Below, in pieces: positions 2,672 to 10,886 of a DNA stretch of 64,000 nucleotides (its first letter is position 1; each line of letters opens with the position of its first letter). The notes beneath the pieces are model-generated. The model had not been told where the DNA came from. It saw only the letters and a list, made by a program, of their open reading frames with translations, and made no database searches. The DNA is from Fodinibius saliphilus (GTDB lineage: Bacteria; Bacteroidota; Rhodothermia; Balneolales; Balneolaceae), in the NCBI RefSeq assembly GCF_005869845.1, contig NZ_VAWF01000001.1:620001-684000 (forward strand), written 5' to 3'. The position numbers and the translations under genes are program-made.

Positions 2672-2746
2672 TTTAAAACTCTTTTTTATCCTCTTGTTAG
2701 AGGATTTGTATATTTACATTCATCGTTGATTTTAAAAGTGCGCTCC

Positions 2747-3619
2747 ATGAATATAAAAAAGGTAACGTTAGCACTAATACAGTGCAGATGCTCTTCTGAT
2801 ATCACAGTAAATATGAAGAAGACTATAAAAAAGATTGAACAGGCCTCAAATGATGGGGCACAAATAATATTATTACAGGAGTTATTTCAGACACCATACT
2901 TTTGTCAAACTGTAGATGAAAAATATTTCGATTTGGCACAATCCATACCAGGTCCAGTTACTGAAGAGCTTTCAAAACTGGCAAAAGAACTGGAGGTCGT
3001 AGTTGTAGCGCCGTTTTTTGAGCGAAGGGCTGCTGGTATTTACCATAATTCCGTTTGTGTTATAGATGCAGATGGTAACTTAATGGGGACATATCGCAAG
3101 CATCACATCCCGGATGACCCTGGTTTTCATGAGAAATATTATTTCACACCCGGAGATGGGGGATATCGGGTTTTTGATACCAAATATGCTAAAATTGCTC
3201 CATTGATATGCTGGGATCAATGGTTCCCTGAAGCTGCCCGTATTGCAGCACTAAAAGGCGCTGAACTGCTTGTATATCCAACTGCTATTGGGACATTGCC
3301 GGATGAAAAAGGTGAGATTGGAAAGAGCTATCTAGATGCATGGCAAACAATACAAAAAAGTCATGCAATCGCTAACAGTTGTTTTGTGGCAAGTGTGAAT
3401 AGAACTGGAGAGGAGGGAGAGGTCAATTTCTGGGGACATTCTTTTGTAGCAAGTCCTTTTGGAAAAGTATTGGCAGAAGCAGGTCATGATGAAGAGACTG
3501 TGATCGCTGAAATCGACATTTTAGAAATTGAAAATCAGCGAAGAGTTTGGCCATTCTTTAGAGATCGAAGGATAGATACTTATCAACCTATAGGAAATCG
3601 GTATATTGAAAATGATTGA
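2747..3619 (+). CDS. aguB: N-carbamoylputrescine amidase
   Basis: A 290-residue nitrilase-superfamily enzyme that hydrolyses N-carbamoylputrescine to putrescine, CO2 and ammonia, the second step of the agmatine route to polyamines; cytoplasmic. The catalytic triad is visible: Glu45 in LLQELFQTPYF, Lys118 in YRKHHIPDD and Cys155 in PLICWDQWFPE. These surrounding sequences are typical of AguB rather than general nitrilases. I chose the ATG at 2747; the frame extends upstream to a TTG at 2726, but the family begins at VTLALIQ, so the extension is unlikely. Agmatine deiminase lies at 4562 on the same strand, separated by an opposite-strand sigma factor gene whose stop is only 3 bases from this gene's stop. 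Confidence 0.93.
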   Translation: MNIKKVTLALIQCRCSSDITVNMKKTIKKIEQASNDGAQIILLQELFQTPYFCQTVDEKYFDLAQSIPGPVTEELSKLAKELEVVVVAPFFERRAAGIYHNSVCVIDADGNLMGTYRKHHIPDDPGFHEKYYFTPGDGGYRVFDTKYAKIAPLICWDQWFPEAARIAALKGAELLVYPTAIGTLPDEKGEIGKSYLDAWQTIQKSHAIANSCFVASVNRTGEEGEVNFWGHSFVASPFGKVLAEAGHDEETVIAEIDILEIENQRRVWPFFRDRRIDTYQPIGNRYIEND

Positions 3620-3622
3620 ACG

Positions 3623-4195
3623 CTAATCACTTTTTAAATTATTATACAACCAGTTTTTAGCTTGGTTCCAGTCACGCTTTATGGTTCTTTCTGATAATTT
3701 TAGTGATTTGGCAATATTATGCATGGTCATATCATGGAAGAATCGCATTCTAACTACTTTGGCGAGCCGTTTGTTATAAACTGAAAGTTCTTCGACCGAT
3801 TTACTTACAAGGCTGTAGCTTTTTGGGCATTCATTTGCTGATCCCAACTCTTCATGAAAAGTTATTTCCTGGTAGTTGGTACCACGTATTTCTGTATCCT
3901 GTTTACGAGCCTGATCTATTAGAATTTGATGCATACAGTTAGAAGCAATAGATAGAAAGTGATTGTAGTTATTACATTTCAAACTTTTTTGCTTCAGCAT
4001 CTTTAAATATAGCTCATGTACCAGGTCAGTGTTGCTAATACCATTTTTATTTTTCTCAGGCATTAGTTGTAGATACGCACGTTTTTTTAGCTCTTCATAA
4101 AGAAGTGAGAATAGTTTGTTATATGCTTTCTGAGTGTTGACGTGAATATTATTAACAAAATACGATCTCTTTGTATCATCCTTTTTTATAGTCAT
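3623..4195 (-). CDS. ECF-type sigma factor, diverged paralogue without adjacent kinase
   Basis: This 190-residue protein has region 2 (LVHELYLKML, HQILIDQARKQ) and a region 4 helix-turn-helix near the C-terminus (MTMHNIAKSLKLSERTIKRDW). It is the same subfamily as the sigmas at 1-407 and 8464-9042 but more diverged; for instance the KRGG after region 2 has become IRGT. The DAED position reads SNTDLVHE with Thr56. No kinase or lipoprotein gene is beside it; it separates aguB from aguA. It is rich in Lys/Asn and AT compared with its neighbours, which may mean relaxed constraint or a different history. DNA-binding residues look intact, so I call it a gene and not a pseudogene. Confidence 0.88.
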   Translation of the reverse strand: MTIKKDDTKRSYFVNNIHVNTQKAYNKLFSLLYEELKKRAYLQLMPEKNKNGISNTDLVHELYLKMLKQKSLKCNNYNHFLSIASNCMHQILIDQARKQDTEIRGTNYQEITFHEELGSANECPKSYSLVSKSVEELSVYNKRLAKVVRMRFFHDMTMHNIAKSLKLSERTIKRDWNQAKNWLYNNLKSD

Positions 4196-4340
4196 ATCCT
4201 ACCCCTTTTTTATTAATTCCCTTAATTAAAAAAGCATTTTTCAGGTAAAATTGAAATAAATTAGGAAAATTTGTCACTTTTCTCATAAATTTTACGCATT
4301 ATATAAGTGAGGGTATTTGTAAAAGGTAGGAAATTAAAGA
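4196..4340. promoter_or_regulatory. AT-rich divergent intergenic segment with the promoters of the sigma gene and of the downstream RNA element
   Basis: This part of the 366-base gap between the sigma start (4195) and aguA (4562) is AT-rich with no gene. A TTGTCA at 4271-4276 and several TATA-like hexamers occur, but spacing fits no consensus well, so promoter positions are not assigned. The rest of the gap holds the structured RNA element at 4341-4484. Confidence 0.35.
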
Positions 4341-4484
4341 GAGGCGCATATTAAGCATCACAGGAGTGATGTTATGTTAAACCGCTGTAAAATACAGCGT
4401 TAGAGGGTCGCGGAGAGATGTCAATAAATGACGCATATTAAGGTTAAGGGCAGTGGGGTTGATACTCACTGCCCTTTTATTTTT
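4341..4484 (+). ncRNA. Candidate structured small RNA or attenuated aguA leader
   Basis: Three plus-strand hairpins follow each other: CATCAC/GTGATG with loop AGGA (4356-4371), CGCTGTA/TACAGCG with loop AAA (4383-4399), and the terminator at 4446-4476. A weaker GTCA/TGAC pair lies at 4420-4432. The 11-mer CGCATATTAAG occurs twice, at 4345-4355 and 4432-4442, framing the middle structure. There is no open reading frame of note. The element ends 77 bases before aguA, so it is either an independent small RNA or a leader that can stop transcription ahead of agmatine deiminase. It does not match a riboswitch consensus I know. Class unassigned. Confidence 0.55.
4446..4484 (+). terminator. Strong rho-independent terminator upstream of aguA
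   Basis: AAGGGCAGTG (4446-4455) pairs perfectly with CACTGCCCTT (4467-4476) around an 11-base loop and is followed by TTTTATTTTT. It ends a transcript begun upstream, within the sigma/aguA gap. Confidence 0.88.
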
Positions 4485-4561
4485 GTCTGTATATAGTATA
4501 TTTGAGCAACCCTCATAACTTGAAGTGTAGAGCTACTGGCATCTCAAAATTAGATTGAAAT

Positions 4562-5629
4562 ATGCTTGAAAAGATACCTGCAGAGTTGAACTATTCCCTG
4601 TTACCCGAGTGGCATAACCACTCAGCTACTCAAATGCATTGGCCTTCAAATAAGAAGACGTGGCCTGGCAAACGTTTACAAAAGGTGGAGTATGTTTATC
4701 TGGATATTATTGAGGTATTACATCGCTATGAGAATATTCACCTCTTTGTTGATAACAGGATACTACATGAGCATGTTGTAAATTTGTTGAGGGAGCGAAA
4801 TATTAATCTAGATAAGATTATATTTCATATCCAATCAATTAATGATGTTTGGGCTCGAGATTGTGGCCCCATTTTTGTTTATCGAGAGGGGGAAGAAGAG
4901 GCTGAGTATGCGATAACAGATTGGGAATATAATAGTTGGGGAGATAAATATCCTCCATATGATTCAGATAATAAGTTACCTAGCTACCTTGCCTCGAAGT
5001 ATGGTATAAGTCGTTATGAACCGGAAATGGTTTTGGAAGGTGGGTCTATAGATACCAATGGGGATGGAGTCTTGATAACAACGGAATCTGTATTATTAAA
5101 TCGCAATAGGAATCCCCAAATGACAAGAGATGATATTGAGCAACGATTACAAGATTTTTTAGGGATACAGAGAGTAATTTGGCTAAAAGGAGGGTTGGCA
5201 GGAGATGATACCGACGGCCATGTGGATGATGTTGCCCGTTTCTTAAATAAAGATACAATACTGGCAATGCGTTCTGATATTGAGCATGATATCAACTATA
5301 AGGTGTTAGATGAAAATTTAGAAATATTACAGCGGGCCACTGACCGCCATGGATATTCATTTGCGATAGAAACCTTGCCATTACCTGAAACCCGTATAGA
5401 GGATAGAACAGTTGATGGGTCAAGTCACGTGCCGGCCAGCTATACCAATTTTTATATTGCAAATGAGGTCGTATTGGTCCCATTATATGATGAGCGTTAT
5501 GATCAAGAGGCCCTTAGGCTTTTCAGACAATATTACCCTGGTCGCGATATTGTTGGCATACCATGTGCCGATCTAGTATGGGGACAAGGAGCAATACATT
5601 GTATTACGCAGCCCCTATACGGCTTATAG
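4562..5629 (+). CDS. aguA: Agmatine deiminase
   Basis: The 355-residue cytoplasmic enzyme converts agmatine to N-carbamoylputrescine and ammonia, the step before AguB. It is a Porphyromonas-type peptidylarginine deiminase family protein: WARDCGPIFV, EGGSIDTNGDG, the GDDTDGHVDD motif with the substrate-binding Asp and His, and the catalytic Cys347 in GQGAIHCITQ near the C-terminus. Length fits the family. Together with aguB (2747) it gives putrescine from agmatine; an arginine decarboxylase is not in the window. A hairpin-rich element with a terminator ends 77 bases upstream, so expression may depend on readthrough or on a promoter in 4485-4561. Confidence 0.93.
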   Translation: MLEKIPAELNYSLLPEWHNHSATQMHWPSNKKTWPGKRLQKVEYVYLDIIEVLHRYENIHLFVDNRILHEHVVNLLRERNINLDKIIFHIQSINDVWARDCGPIFVYREGEEEAEYAITDWEYNSWGDKYPPYDSDNKLPSYLASKYGISRYEPEMVLEGGSIDTNGDGVLITTESVLLNRNRNPQMTRDDIEQRLQDFLGIQRVIWLKGGLAGDDTDGHVDDVARFLNKDTILAMRSDIEHDINYKVLDENLEILQRATDRHGYSFAIETLPLPETRIEDRTVDGSSHVPASYTNFYIANEVVLVPLYDERYDQEALRLFRQYYPGRDIVGIPCADLVWGQGAIHCITQPLYGL

Positions 5630-5649
5630 AATACCAGGGGGATAGGCAG

Positions 5650-8385
5650 CTAACGCTTGTGGTGCCTTTCTTTTATGTTTTTAATATAGCTCAGGGCTTT
5701 TTGTATACGTAAATCGTTATCATTAAAGTTTTTCTTGAATATGGAAACCGCTTTTGAGAAATATTTTTCTGATATTGAAAAATTTTGTTGGTGATATTTA
5801 AGGAGACCATAATTCATAAAAAACTCCCCAATCCGGTAGTGATCTTGCGGGAAATGGTTTTCATAGATAGGTTTCGCCTTAGTAAAAATGGAATCTGATT
5901 TTGCATATTTCTTGGCCTTCATTAAGATTGAACCTAATTTATTCAGGTCTAAGCCAACTTCAGGATGTTTTTCTCCTAGGCGTAGCTTGTCTATAGTGAT
6001 TACCTGTTTTAACAACTTTTGGGCTTTACTATATTTTCCTAGATCCATTAATACATCTCCAAGGTTATACATAGGAATTGCCAAGTCTGGATTGGTGCTG
6101 TCCATTTTACTTCGATAAATAGCCAGTGATTTCTCGTAGTTATTCTTTGCCTGTTGTAAATTGCCTTGAGCTTTTTGAATAATGGCAAAGTTATTAACAC
6201 TCTTTGCATATATAACAGAGGAATCGCCATAGATACTTTTAGTTAGGTCAATATCCTTGAGTGCATATTTTTCGGCTTGTTCCCATTCGCTTAAGACGCG
6301 GTAATTTCTGGCTAATAATCCATAGCTGGCACTTAATTCAGAACTATTGGGACCATACAACTTGATGAACTCTTCCAATGCTTCAAGTAGGTATGATTCA
6401 GCTTTCTTATGTTTGCTGGTACGATGATATAATAATCCCATTCGATACTTTGTACGGGCAATTTCGGGATGGGAGTGTTCATAATAATTCTTGAAATAGG
6501 AGAGAGCCTTTTTAAAATGTTTCTCAGCTAGCCCATATTCACCCAAAAATAACTGAGTTTCTCCTAAGTTTGCTAAAGTAACGTGATAAGAAATATTGTC
6601 TGTCTTATGATATCTTTTTTTAAGACTATCCGATTTTAGAAATAAGTTTTCTGCTTTTTGATATTGAGATTGCAAAAATTGATTACTTGCGTATATCGCA
6701 AAAGGTTCTGCCAACTCAGGTGAATTGTCTCCATATAACTGTATTTTAATATCAATTGCTTTGCGAATGTGTTTTTCAGCCAAGTTGTATTTGTGGACTT
6801 CGTGATAGTAACTTGAGAGATGGGAATGAATGTTAGCAGTTTGTAATGACTTTTCACCATAGTGTGTAATACTTCTATTTAATGCTTTTGTTAAAGCTTC
6901 TTTAGCGGTTTCGAATGCATCCACATTTGATAAAGCATCCCCAATTGCAGAGAGCATTTCAATGTATATTTTCGGTTGATCATTTAGCTCTCGTTCTGTT
7001 CTATGGAATCCAGCCAAGAGTAAATCATTGACTGTGGCATTATTGCCAGCATAGCTTTTCATATCTGGATTGCCGGTATTAAACATCTGAAGCATAAAGT
7101 TTTTTACTTGTTCAGCGCGTTCTGCTTCAAAACGCGCCTGATCACGCTCTTTGGCAATGCGCCAAGTATAAAAGCTTGCAAAACCGATGATGAGTAAAAT
7201 AACACCTACAACTGTAGCAAGGCCTTGTTTATGTCGTTGGAAAAACTTTTTTGACCGATACTGCACTGAATTTTGACGTGCGGTAACTGGTAATCCCTTA
7301 CGGTAATTTTCTAAATCACTTAAAAAATCATTGGCAACACGGTAGCGTTGGTCAGCTTCTTTACGAATGGCTTTGAGTACAATTGCATCCAGATCGCCTC
7401 GTAGCTTTTTTTTAAGGGTTATCGAATCAACTGATGAGCTTGGGGATGAGGGGTCCTTTTTTAATATAATATGTTCAATTTCATGTTGTGAGATATCTTC
7501 AAAATTGAAAGGAAAGGCCCCTGCTAATAATTGATAAAATATGATACCGAGGGCATATAGATCGGTAGCTGTTGTGATATTGGTTTCCTTAATTTGTTCA
7601 GGTGCTGCATATTTTGGAGTCAGAAGTCGTGCTCCTGTCTGTGTTAAAGAAGCATCCTCTTCTTGGTGGAGTTTGGATATTCCAAAATCGAGTATTTTAA
7701 CATTCCCGGATTGATCGACCAGGATATTTCCAGGTTTCAAATCCCGATGAATAACCAGGTTCTCATGGGCATGACGAACGGCTTGTAGTACTTGTTTAAA
7801 AAGCTCAATTTTATCATCAATCGAAGTATTGTATTTGCGGCAATATTCATCAATAGGCATGCCGTTAACATATTCCATGATGATATAGAGAAACCCGTCA
7901 TCGGTAACTCCGCCGTCAAAAAGCTGGGCTATTCCGCGATGGCTAAGGTTCGCTAGAATCTGCTGTTCTCTTTTAAATCGTTGTATATTTGATTGTGTAG
8001 CTCTCCCATGTCGAATTATTTTGATAGCCACCTTGTGATCAAATTTTTTATCATCACGTTCAGCCATATAGACTGTACCCATACCACCTTCTCCCAAGAT
8101 GCTTTTAATAGAATAGGAGCCAACTTTTTTACCTATTAGGGAATTTTCTTCAGTAATACTCTCAATTTCGTTACCTAGTTCGTTATAAAACTCCTTCTTG
8201 TATGTAGATGGGTTGTCAAGCCAGCCTTCTGACTCAAAAATCGAGTTAAGGAGTTGGGTGACTTCTATTTTGAGGGTTTTATTATTTTTACACCTTTTTT
8301 GGATGAAAGCAGGGTGCTGATCTTGGGGTAAGTCTAATACTTCATCAATAATAGTCTCTACTTCTTGCCAGTCGAGTTCACTCAT
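5650..8385 (-). CDS. Transmembrane Ser/Thr protein kinase with C-terminal TPR region
   Basis: The 911-residue protein has an N-terminal helical segment (1-75), a complete PknB-like kinase domain (about 91-360) and one membrane helix (about 389-407), then about 500 residues of TPR repeats of the kind with 42-residue spacing. The kinase looks active: Gly loop GEGGMGTV, Lys122 in VAIK, HRDLKPGN with Asp215, DFG at 233-235 and AAPEQ. The kinase should face the cytoplasm and the TPR part the periplasm. It lies 78 bases downstream of the sigma gene at 8464 on the same strand, so they are probably co-transcribed. That pairing of ECF sigma and kinase recurs in several phyla, and the sigma factor is the likely substrate. 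That last point is inference. Confidence 0.92.
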   Translation of the reverse strand: MSELDWQEVETIIDEVLDLPQDQHPAFIQKRCKNNKTLKIEVTQLLNSIFESEGWLDNPSTYKKEFYNELGNEIESITEENSLIGKKVGSYSIKSILGEGGMGTVYMAERDDKKFDHKVAIKIIRHGRATQSNIQRFKREQQILANLSHRGIAQLFDGGVTDDGFLYIIMEYVNGMPIDEYCRKYNTSIDDKIELFKQVLQAVRHAHENLVIHRDLKPGNILVDQSGNVKILDFGISKLHQEEDASLTQTGARLLTPKYAAPEQIKETNITTATDLYALGIIFYQLLAGAFPFNFEDISQHEIEHIILKKDPSSPSSSVDSITLKKKLRGDLDAIVLKAIRKEADQRYRVANDFLSDLENYRKGLPVTARQNSVQYRSKKFFQRHKQGLATVVGVILLIIGFASFYTWRIAKERDQARFEAERAEQVKNFMLQMFNTGNPDMKSYAGNNATVNDLLLAGFHRTERELNDQPKIYIEMLSAIGDALSNVDAFETAKEALTKALNRSITHYGEKSLQTANIHSHLSSYYHEVHKYNLAEKHIRKAIDIKIQLYGDNSPELAEPFAIYASNQFLQSQYQKAENLFLKSDSLKKRYHKTDNISYHVTLANLGETQLFLGEYGLAEKHFKKALSYFKNYYEHSHPEIARTKYRMGLLYHRTSKHKKAESYLLEALEEFIKLYGPNSSELSASYGLLARNYRVLSEWEQAEKYALKDIDLTKSIYGDSSVIYAKSVNNFAIIQKAQGNLQQAKNNYEKSLAIYRSKMDSTNPDLAIPMYNLGDVLMDLGKYSKAQKLLKQVITIDKLRLGEKHPEVGLDLNKLGSILMKAKKYAKSDSIFTKAKPIYENHFPQDHYRIGEFFMNYGLLKYHQQNFSISEKYFSKAVSIFKKNFNDNDLRIQKALSYIKNIKERHHKR

Positions 8386-8463: not shown

Positions 8464-9042
8464 TTACTCCATCTTAAACCGCCCTTTCAATTCTTTGTAT
8501 AGCCAGCCCCGAGCCTTCATCCAATCACGTTTAACAGTACTCTCAGAAATGCCTAAGGTATTTGCTGTTTCTGTAATTGTCATTTCTCCAAAGAAACGCA
8601 TTTCAACAACTTTGCTGAGTCTGCTATTTAGTTTTTCCAGTCTATCAAGTGCTGCATCAATATCCAGAAGTTCTTGTGACTTTTTATTCTGATTCTTAAA
8701 AATTTCGTCTATATACGTGAGATCTTTCTGTTTACCTCCACGCTTTTCAGCCGTTTTCTTGCGGGCATAATCGATTAAAATTTGACGCATACAGCGAGAG
8801 GAAATTGCTAAAAAATGGCTTTTATCAGTGAAGTTAATCTTCGACTGATCTATCATCTTTAAATAGGTCTCATGCACGAGTTCAGTCTTTGAGAGGGTGT
8901 GGTCCGGTGACTGACGATGCATGTGTGAATAAGCTAGCTTCCTAAGCTCTTCATAAATAAGTGGGTAAAGCTTTTCGTAGACCTTCTTTTGACCATCTTT
9001 TAACTGGCAAAGTAGTTGAGTGACTTCTGATTGAGATACCAT
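8464..9042 (-). CDS. ECF-type sigma factor paired with a Ser/Thr kinase
   Basis: 192 residues with region 2 (TELVHETYLKMI, RCMRQILIDYARKK, AEKRGG) and region 4 (MTITETANTLGISESTVKRDW). It closely resembles the truncated sigma at 1-407. The site normally occupied by the acidic DAED motif reads SKTE, with Thr53. In the Vibrio EcfP/PknT system a Thr at about this place is phosphorylated to restore polymerase binding; the kinase gene just downstream makes the same mechanism plausible here. It is divergent from the lipoprotein gene at 9153 across a 110-base gap, which suggests that gene as a target. Family firm, mechanism inferred. Confidence 0.92.
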   Translation of the reverse strand: MVSQSEVTQLLCQLKDGQKKVYEKLYPLIYEELRKLAYSHMHRQSPDHTLSKTELVHETYLKMIDQSKINFTDKSHFLAISSRCMRQILIDYARKKTAEKRGGKQKDLTYIDEIFKNQNKKSQELLDIDAALDRLEKLNSRLSKVVEMRFFGEMTITETANTLGISESTVKRDWMKARGWLYKELKGRFKME

Positions 9043-9152: not shown

Positions 9153-10886
9153 ATGACTAACAAAGCTACAATATTCGGATTAATAATGTCAGTGCTAATC
9201 CTCTTCGGCTGTTCAGGAAACAGTACTAGCCCAGACAATGGAGGAGGTGATGATGGAGGCGGAAATGGCGGAACACCTACTGCAACTGCAGATGCAGGAA
9301 CAGATTCGGAGGAAGCTGTTGGGTTTGAAATATCAGCAGATGGATCCGGTTCGACGGGAAGTGGAACTATCAGTTATTCCTGGAGTTTTACTAATCAGCC
9401 TGCCAACAGTACAGTCACCTTGTCAAATGCATCCTCAGAAACCCCTACTTTTACACCTGATCTGCCTGGGGAGTATATTTTGGAACTGGAGGTGAGTTCT
9501 GACGGTGAAACAGATGCTGATACTGTTGTATATTCAGCAATAGCTAAAAGAATATTTGTTGATGCAAATAGCGGTACTGATGAAGATATTAACGGCTATA
9601 TGGAGGCAACACCTTTGAAAACGGTATCCGCAGCATTGACACGCATTGGCAATAATGATAGTGATCCCTTTTTGGCAATCGATACCATGCGTGTTGCAAA
9701 AGGGACCTATGACGAAAATAACGGAGAAAGTTATCCTTTGTCCTTTATCGGCAACTTGATTGTTAAGGGAGACCAGAGTGTCGATCGTAGCAGTATACAC
9801 CTGCTGAGTCCAGATGTTGAGAGGGACCCGGCAATTAAAATTGGAGAGGGAGTAATATTAAGACACCTACATATTGAAAATGGTTATACCGGGGGAACGT
9901 TTAATGGCGACCCCGATGCGGTATATATATGGAGCGGAAGCGACATGAGCTCATCAACAGTTGCATTGGAGGATATTAAAATAACAATGAATGCCAGGGA
10001 AGGAGTAGCCATATCAACCGGCTCAAATATGACAGTAGATGTTCGGGGCTATAACGGTACCCGGAGCTATATTAACGGGAATAATGTTGGACGTGCTTAT
10101 CTAAACCGATTTAACACTTCAAATGTAACCCTAAATATTAAAGATACGGATATTTCAAATATGGGAGATGTTGGAGCTATCGAGGTTGATGATGTTCATA
10201 ATCTTACTATTAATGTCACCAATTCGGTATTTAAACCCGGTACAGGGCATGTGAATGCCTATGCTTTCGACCTGGAAGATGATGTGGATCTAACATTAGA
10301 AAATACGACTATTACCAGCAGTACCGGGTCAACATCAGGTGCTCGTTTTAAATATGGGATAGTAATGGACAATGATCAGCCAAATACTAATATCGAGATT
10401 CTGAACTCTACTATAGAGTATACGCAGTGGTCAGCAGTTTTAATGCGTGCTTCTGTTGTTAAAATAACTGATAGTATTATTGAAGGAGTGCTTACACAAG
10501 AGTCTAATGTGAATTTAGCCTATGATGCTATCAGGCAACTCGATGGTACACTGATAGTGCGTGGAACTACATTCAAAGATATTAATACCAGTGCAATAGA
10601 TGTTGGAGGACCTAATTTGCCCAATGACAATAACTTTTCTGTGGATTTGGGTACTGATCAGGATCCGGGTAACAATGTTTTCCAAAATGTTAGGGGATGG
10701 GATGTACAGGTATCGCGTAGTGGTGAGGTAGTGAGTGAATTACCGGCATTCGGAAATAGCTGGTCTAATGGAGCTAGTCCAAGATGCAGACAAGATGTAA
10801 GCGATTATGATCTTGGAGAAATATATGTAAATGATCAGGGGGGGAGCCTACGCTGGGGAACCGGCAGCTCAGAGATATGTAACTAA
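9153..10886 (+). CDS. Exported lipoprotein with PKD-like domain and right-handed beta-helix
   Basis: 577 residues. The signal peptide ends at lipobox Cys20, followed by a Gly/Asp linker with a run of Gly, Asp and Asn. A PKD/Ig-like domain (about 45-130) is clearly related to that of the lipoprotein at 592: both have TNxPxNSxVTLSN and later PGEY or AGDY. From about 135 comes a DUF1565-type start (FVDANSGTDE, ATPLKTVSAAL) and a parallel beta-helix with repeated short strands to the end. Such folds often bind or cut polysaccharides, but I see no catalytic signature. It is divergent from the sigma/kinase pair, so it may be a target or a sensor partner of that system. Confidence 0.82.
   Translation: MTNKATIFGLIMSVLILFGCSGNSTSPDNGGGDDGGGNGGTPTATADAGTDSEEAVGFEISADGSGSTGSGTISYSWSFTNQPANSTVTLSNASSETPTFTPDLPGEYILELEVSSDGETDADTVVYSAIAKRIFVDANSGTDEDINGYMEATPLKTVSAALTRIGNNDSDPFLAIDTMRVAKGTYDENNGESYPLSFIGNLIVKGDQSVDRSSIHLLSPDVERDPAIKIGEGVILRHLHIENGYTGGTFNGDPDAVYIWSGSDMSSSTVALEDIKITMNAREGVAISTGSNMTVDVRGYNGTRSYINGNNVGRAYLNRFNTSNVTLNIKDTDISNMGDVGAIEVDDVHNLTINVTNSVFKPGTGHVNAYAFDLEDDVDLTLENTTITSSTGSTSGARFKYGIVMDNDQPNTNIEILNSTIEYTQWSAVLMRASVVKITDSIIEGVLTQESNVNLAYDAIRQLDGTLIVRGTTFKDINTSAIDVGGPNLPNDNNFSVDLGTDQDPGNNVFQNVRGWDVQVSRSGEVVSELPAFGNSWSNGASPRCRQDVSDYDLGEIYVNDQGGSLRWGTGSSEICN

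Follow-up and report, generated by a model that had tools for sequence, protein, structure and literature searches.

A conserved candidate small RNA linked to an ECF-type promoter upstream of aguA in Fodinibius

The window analysed here is a stretch of 64,000 nucleotides from the genome of Fodinibius saliphilus. Positions 4305–4484 of the window probably encode a structured non-coding RNA that is about 180 nt long and ends in its own terminator. It would be transcribed under the control of an ECF sigma factor from a promoter at 4269–4298 and would act in trans. The presence of a conserved RNA with its own promoter and terminator is supported by comparison with two genomes of the same genus; the sigma dependence, the start site, the action in trans and the targets of the RNA are inferred. 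The initial annotation had placed a structured element at 4341–4484 and offered a small RNA of about 150 bases as one reading of it. This reading is supported by the hairpins, terminator and promoter kept in the two relatives, with the length now put at about 180 nt. The window genome is referred to as G000, and the two other carriers of the RNA as G004 and G010. The features of the region are as follows:

2726–3619, plus strand: aguB, N-carbamoylputrescine amidase-like gene, adjoining aguA in most relatives
3623–4195, minus strand: ECF sigma factor gene, TIGR02999 (Sig-70_X6) / PF07638, whose product probably activates the RNA
4269–4298, plus strand: ECF-type promoter, ATTTGTCAC (−35) N14 TTACGCA (−10), invariant in G000, G004 and G010
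4305–4484, plus strand: predicted non-coding RNA of about 180 nt, start placed by promoter spacing
4339–4344, plus strand: GAGAGR copy 1, from sequence comparison of the three RNAs
4345–4355, plus strand: direct repeat copy 1, CGCATATTAAG, not kept in the relatives
4355–4361 with 4366–4372, plus strand: hairpin P1, GCATCAC/GTGATGT, loop AGGA
4383–4389 with 4393–4399, plus strand: hairpin P2, CGCTGTA/TACAGCG, 7 bp
4413–4418, plus strand: GAGAGR copy 2, part of a motif common to the RNAs, GGGTC with GAGAG a few bases further on
4419–4423 with 4429–4433, plus strand: hairpin P3, TGTCA/TGACG, added to the initial annotation
4432–4442, plus strand: direct repeat copy 2, CGCATATTAAG, not kept as a repeat
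4446–4484, plus strand: intrinsic terminator, 12 pairs and a T-rich tail, conserved in G004 and G010
4497–4504, plus strand: TATATTTG, TAnnTTTG-like −7 element read from the sequence; in G004 and G010 variant forms of it follow the terminator
4562–5629, plus strand: aguA, agmatine deiminase (PF04371), by domain match
5650–8385, minus strand: TPR-containing Ser/Thr kinase, a homologue of which is encoded immediately after the ECF gene in G010

The two short hairpins described at the outset hold: P1 has seven pairs, including one G-U, and P2 is a perfect helix. P3 reads CGTCA/TGACG in G004. The sequence GGAGTGA (4363–4369, within P1) occurs once in each of the three RNAs. The 11-base direct repeat that had been noticed is indeed present in the window, and it is not conserved in G004 and G010. 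The shorter repeat GAGAGR is found in at least two copies in all three RNAs. The terminator stem, AAGGGCAGTG/CACTGCCCTT, is a perfect helix of 10 bp (4446–4455 with 4467–4476), as previously stated, or of 12 pairs when G-U is counted, and is followed by TTATTTTT. It is the sole plus-strand terminator detected in 3620–5640. The 144-nt stretch 4341–4484 folds with −46.2 kcal/mol, compared with −30.9 ± 3.1 kcal/mol for 200 dinucleotide shuffles (z −4.93), none of which was as good. The element extends upstream of 4341 to the promoter at 4269–4298, and the terminator and a non-coding pattern are present in the sequence of 4305–4484.

Intergenic terminators are common, and the region could be regarded as an ordinary insulating terminator accompanied by chance hairpins, with no functional RNA. 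However, no plus-strand gene lies directly upstream that would require the terminator, the left neighbour 3623–4195 being on the minus strand, just as the initial annotation had argued. Furthermore, G004 retains sequence, hairpins and promoter at 79% identity, and in G010 they are still recognisable. This makes the explanation by chance very improbable. The AGGA in the P1 loop and the repeated GA-rich segments would also suit a CsrB/RsmY-like sponge which binds CsrA through GGA motifs. However, CsrA (PF02599) was found in none of four genomes, G000, G004 and G010 among them, by a search that was positive in three of 14 control genomes, including E. coli and B. subtilis. The sponge is largely refuted by this result and can be considered extremely unlikely.

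Of the 11 other genomes of the genus that were searched, two carry the RNA with the same hairpins and at the same place, which brings the count to 3/12 with the window genome; covariation is thin because the copies are few. A DNA search of the whole genomes of 146 relatives gave, besides the window's own sequence, a single strong match, G004, with 79% identity over 164 aligned query bases. The third copy, in G010, came from the survey of aguA loci described below. It is found by the covariance model built from the window and G004 sequences with E 7.7e-5 in 10 kb and E 6.6e-4 in 89 kb. All 31 base pairs are kept between the window and G004, with five one-sided changes and a single compensatory one, located in P2 (T-A to C-G in G004). 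This level was reached in 244 of 500 shuffle controls and is too little for a claim of covariation between these two sequences. The terminator and the promoter are also conserved in both relatives.

A covariance search in Balneolota genomes had been proposed together with the initial annotation. The stems were found to be kept in G004 and G010, and among the genomes of the order only these two and G000 scored well. The model R1, which includes two of the RNAs, recovered G000 and G004 strongly among 128 genomes of the order and missed G010 under strict filters. The model R2, which includes all three, recovered G000, G004 and G010 at E 3.4e-16 or better among 126 genomes; the matches of either model to its own members arise by construction. 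R2 gave weaker matches (E 4e-5 to 0.026) in another 10 genomes. Four of these matches (L209, L210, L211 and L213) were read and judged to be gene-end terminators overlapping coding ends.

The alignment of the window and G004 contains short indels, and no short ORF is common to the three RNAs; a coding function is therefore unlikely. A leader peptide was rejected for the lack of a common short ORF. No match at or above the gathering score of any Rfam 15 family was obtained in the 64 kb window, and the strongest of the weak matches in the region had an E value of 0.62. The RNA shares with the Rfam cis-regulatory RNAs and riboswitches a structured stretch and a terminator before a metabolic gene, but it reaches the gathering score of none of these families. 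A known RNA family or an Rfam riboswitch was rejected on this ground. No description of this RNA was found in the titles and abstract openings of the papers listed.

The promoter is the feature which connects the RNA with a sigma factor. The boxes TTTGTCAC and TTACGCA fall inside 4260–4310, and ATTTGTCAC-N14-TTACGCA stands directly upstream of the RNA, invariant in all three loci. E. coli-type promoter-like sites occur at chance level only. Across the 12 same-genus genomes, 36 near-copies with up to two mismatches to ATTTGTCAC-N14-TTACGCA were found. Half of them (18) lie within 12 kb of the 35 TIGR02999-type ECF genes, where 0.65 would be expected (P 3e-22); with the three motif-defining sites excluded, the count is 15 of 33. 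These sites mostly precede lipoprotein-like genes, as in G002, G003, G004 (at a second locus), G006 and G009; these were recognised by eye from their signal-like N-termini. Around ECF–kinase pairs, six of seven scanned lipoprotein-like proteins match PD40, TIG or, weakly, collagen. Since the motif clusters near ECF genes of the same type and precedes lipoprotein-like genes, the TIGR02999-type ECF factors very probably use it as their promoter, and its product in the window would be the RNA. When a sequence collection was scanned for the promoter with its spacing, three contigs were recovered: G004, one whose locus is identical to that of G010, and a Coxiellaceae MAG, in the last of which no RNA-like sequence was seen downstream. 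At the loci L168, L169, L170, L171 and L173, arrays of lipoprotein-like genes with PD40, TIG or weak collagen matches flank ECF–kinase pairs. Many genes of these arrays carry their own copy of the ECF-type promoter, and a XerD-like gene, identified by eye, lies beside the arrays.

The gene order in the window is the same as in G004, namely aguB, ECF (minus strand), RNA, aguA, kinase (minus strand) and second ECF (minus strand). In G010, kinase, ECF and RNA are found together. The flanking genes diverge as described in the initial annotation, with 3623–4195 on the minus strand and aguA (4562–5629) on the plus strand. The protein encoded by 3623–4195 scores 149.3 bits against TIGR02999, for which the curated cut-off is 126.15. 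From its position, this is probably the paralogue that reads the promoter at 4269–4298, although two further ECF genes of TIGR02999 type, less than 5 kb away, count against the assignment. Two other observations count against the small RNA reading: the window kinase adjoins the second ECF gene (8464–9042) and not the ECF gene 3623–4195, and the ECF proteins of the window and G004 form a long branch apart from that of G010.

Altogether the window contains three TIGR02999-like ECF genes within 9 kb, at 1–374 (read from the genome search), 3623–4195 and 8464–9042. The outer two are divergent from the lipoprotein-like genes 592–2610 and 9153–10886, and the middle one from the RNA. The sequence TTTGAACC-N14-GCTCGCA, found in 375–591 between the first ECF gene and its lipoprotein-like neighbour and largely conserved with G004, is possibly a second type of ECF promoter.

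We propose that the ECF sigma factor encoded by 3623–4195 directs RNA polymerase to transcribe the RNA from ATTTGTCAC-N14-TTACGCA. The sigma factor would be activated by the Ser/Thr kinases that accompany this TIGR02999 ECF type. With the sigma factor active, the RNA would accumulate and act in trans, most likely by base-pairing with mRNAs through its exposed purine-rich segments (GAGAGR twice, GGAGUGA and GGGUC). It would represent the RNA arm of the sigma regulon, and the protein arm elsewhere in the genus would consist of the lipoprotein-like secreted proteins.

The RNA could also act on its neighbour and provide feedback, either by pairing as an antisense RNA with an extended 5′ leader on the ECF mRNA or by transcriptional interference. 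RNA and ECF gene are divergent in all three loci, and in the window about 110 nt separate the predicted RNA start from the start codon of the ECF gene. This explanation requires the ECF promoter to lie within or beyond the RNA. Moreover, the hairpins of the RNA are themselves conserved, which a pure antisense RNA would not need, and we regard such a local action as quite improbable.

All three RNA copies are located directly upstream of aguA, which counts against an RNA acting in trans. In an alternative reading, the aguA mRNA would start at the ECF promoter with the RNA as its 5′ leader, and a protein or a ligand, for which agmatine, arginine and putrescine are candidates, would relieve attenuation at the terminator. 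In its favour, aguA is co-directional with the RNA and is the next gene downstream in all three loci. Also in the sister genus g4, discussed below, a short terminated RNA precedes aguB or aguA; however, it bears no recognisable relation to the window RNA. The pairing of partial transcripts ending in the terminator loop was analysed for the three RNAs. In the window RNA, P2 can pair with the 5′ arm of the terminator, but G004 and G010 keep P2, so that the alternative pairing is seen in one of three. A conserved antiterminator was rejected, as the competing pairing occurs in G000 alone. Furthermore, a TAnnTTTG-like element sits between the terminator and aguA. TAnnTTTG is given as a sigma-A consensus in an excerpt of PMC9723704, and TATATTTG is possibly aguA's own promoter, a weak assignment since such a motif counts for little in AT-rich DNA.

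The survey of aguA loci covered 30 of the 76 genomes in which a match had been obtained, and aguA was parsed in 28 of these 30. In 17 of the 28 parsed loci an aguB-like gene, recognised by eye from its N-terminal sequence, directly precedes aguA at a distance of at most 104 nt, and in two more at a larger distance. The terminator filter used in this survey overlooks the real terminator of G004. In the three RNA loci the ECF–RNA cassette lies between aguB and aguA. The cassette was found at only three of the 28 loci, so the RNA does not track aguA; in G007, a member of the same genus, aguB and aguA are adjacent without the RNA. The initial annotation had also proposed a leader with a sensing function in the control of aguA. 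This finds no support, as the cassette separates aguB from aguA and the RNA is absent at the other aguA genes examined. This setting suggests that the RNA is not an agmatine riboswitch. The leader is unlikely, and is kept at this low level because of its co-direction with aguA in all three loci.

In g4, a genus of the same family (G032, G048 and G053), the promoter AAATGA[AG]CC-N14-TTACGCA stands before another RNA, about 90 nt long. This RNA has a 5′ hairpin and a terminator and is followed by a conserved block and then by aguB or aguA. With a model of this g4 RNA, G067 was recovered at E 2.9e-12 and G060 weakly, in each case next to ECF and aguA, and a similar stretch was recognised by eye in G057. 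Among the further weak matches of the model (E 0.0019 to 0.08) are copies of a second, separate element that resembles a small RNA. The ECF proteins of g4 share 65–76% identity with the window's second ECF and are not relatives of the ECF beside the window RNA. For this reason we regard the modules as related, and the window RNA and the g4 RNA as outputs that are probably independent of each other.

A sequence pattern derived from the g4 RNA, GGNTTTTCGGGGNNCANA, occurs in 28 of 92 family genomes, including all 12 of the Fodinibius genus, and its reversed control gave no match in the 92 genomes. The second element is located outside the window in G000 (G000:C1:972161-972252; L229/L237, reverse strand), reads GGNTTTTCGGGGTACAAA and is present in 12 of 12 same-genus genomes. 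Most copies, on the reverse strand, have TTTGTACCCCGAAAANCC followed by a terminator hairpin, and pairs about 160 bp apart occur in several g4 genomes. The element looks like an unnamed small RNA, and its L224 copy had no Rfam match. The g4 RNA (L191, L193, L196, L221 and L223, upstream of aguB or aguA) carries GG(G/T)TTTTCGGGG, which is complementary to the conserved part of the second element; the g4 RNA is possibly a sponge or partner of the latter. The window RNA is not complementary to the second element. Its predicted pairing was equalled by 38 of 200 shuffles, and that of the G004 RNA was weak (20 of 200). The G010 RNA ranked first of 200, by a method that ignores internal structure and makes this rank uninformative. 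A broader scheme, in which the kinase-linked TIGR02999 modules of Balneolaceae repeatedly put out a short terminated RNA and the g4 RNA is a sigma-controlled sponge or partner, is rather unlikely. In this scheme one RNA in Fodinibius and an unrelated one in g4 would replace the lipoprotein-like gene as output.

Among known systems, MicA, RybB and MicL of E. coli are described as RpoE-dependent sRNAs (PMC8103513). As far as the excerpt of that source goes, the window RNA resembles them in being a terminated non-coding RNA from an ECF-type promoter, with envelope or secreted proteins in the regulon. In contrast to them, the window RNA gene is divergent from the presumed sigma gene, and the sigma factor is of the kinase-linked TIGR02999 type. 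The likeness is one of arrangement, and no relation in sequence is expected. By this analogy the RNA may be the regulatory arm of an ECF response. In the ECF43 pairs EcfP/PknT and EcfK/PknS, the ECF factor stands beside a Hanks-type kinase and can be activated by phosphorylation (PMC8999054, PMC13147305). Such a neighbourhood is directly visible in G010, whereas in the window the kinase adjoins the second ECF gene; the comparison is one of gene neighbourhood. Kinase control of the ECF factor 3623–4195 may be suggested by analogy. The excerpts of the two ECF43 reports do not mention an RNA output (PMC8999054, PMC13147305). Within Bacteroidetes, Rfp18-type sRNAs are conserved independent sRNAs of Flavobacterium psychrophilum, and the excerpt of the report mentions no ECF link for Rfp18 (PMC9723704). 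The window RNA, predicted from sequence, is likewise a candidate for a conserved independent sRNA, but belongs to another lineage. To our knowledge, the sequence of Rfp18 differs from that of the window RNA.

A conserved, ECF-promoter-linked RNA in Balneolota appears to be new here, while its kind is already known. Kinase-linked ECF sigma factors are numerous, and we know of few outputs of these regulators. The analysis gives a concrete promoter sequence for one kinase-linked ECF type in Balneolota, names a short list of lipoprotein-like genes in related species as its probable outputs, and adds a candidate regulatory RNA. It also indicates that an RNA beside a metabolic gene can mimic a riboswitch although its conserved partner is a sigma factor.
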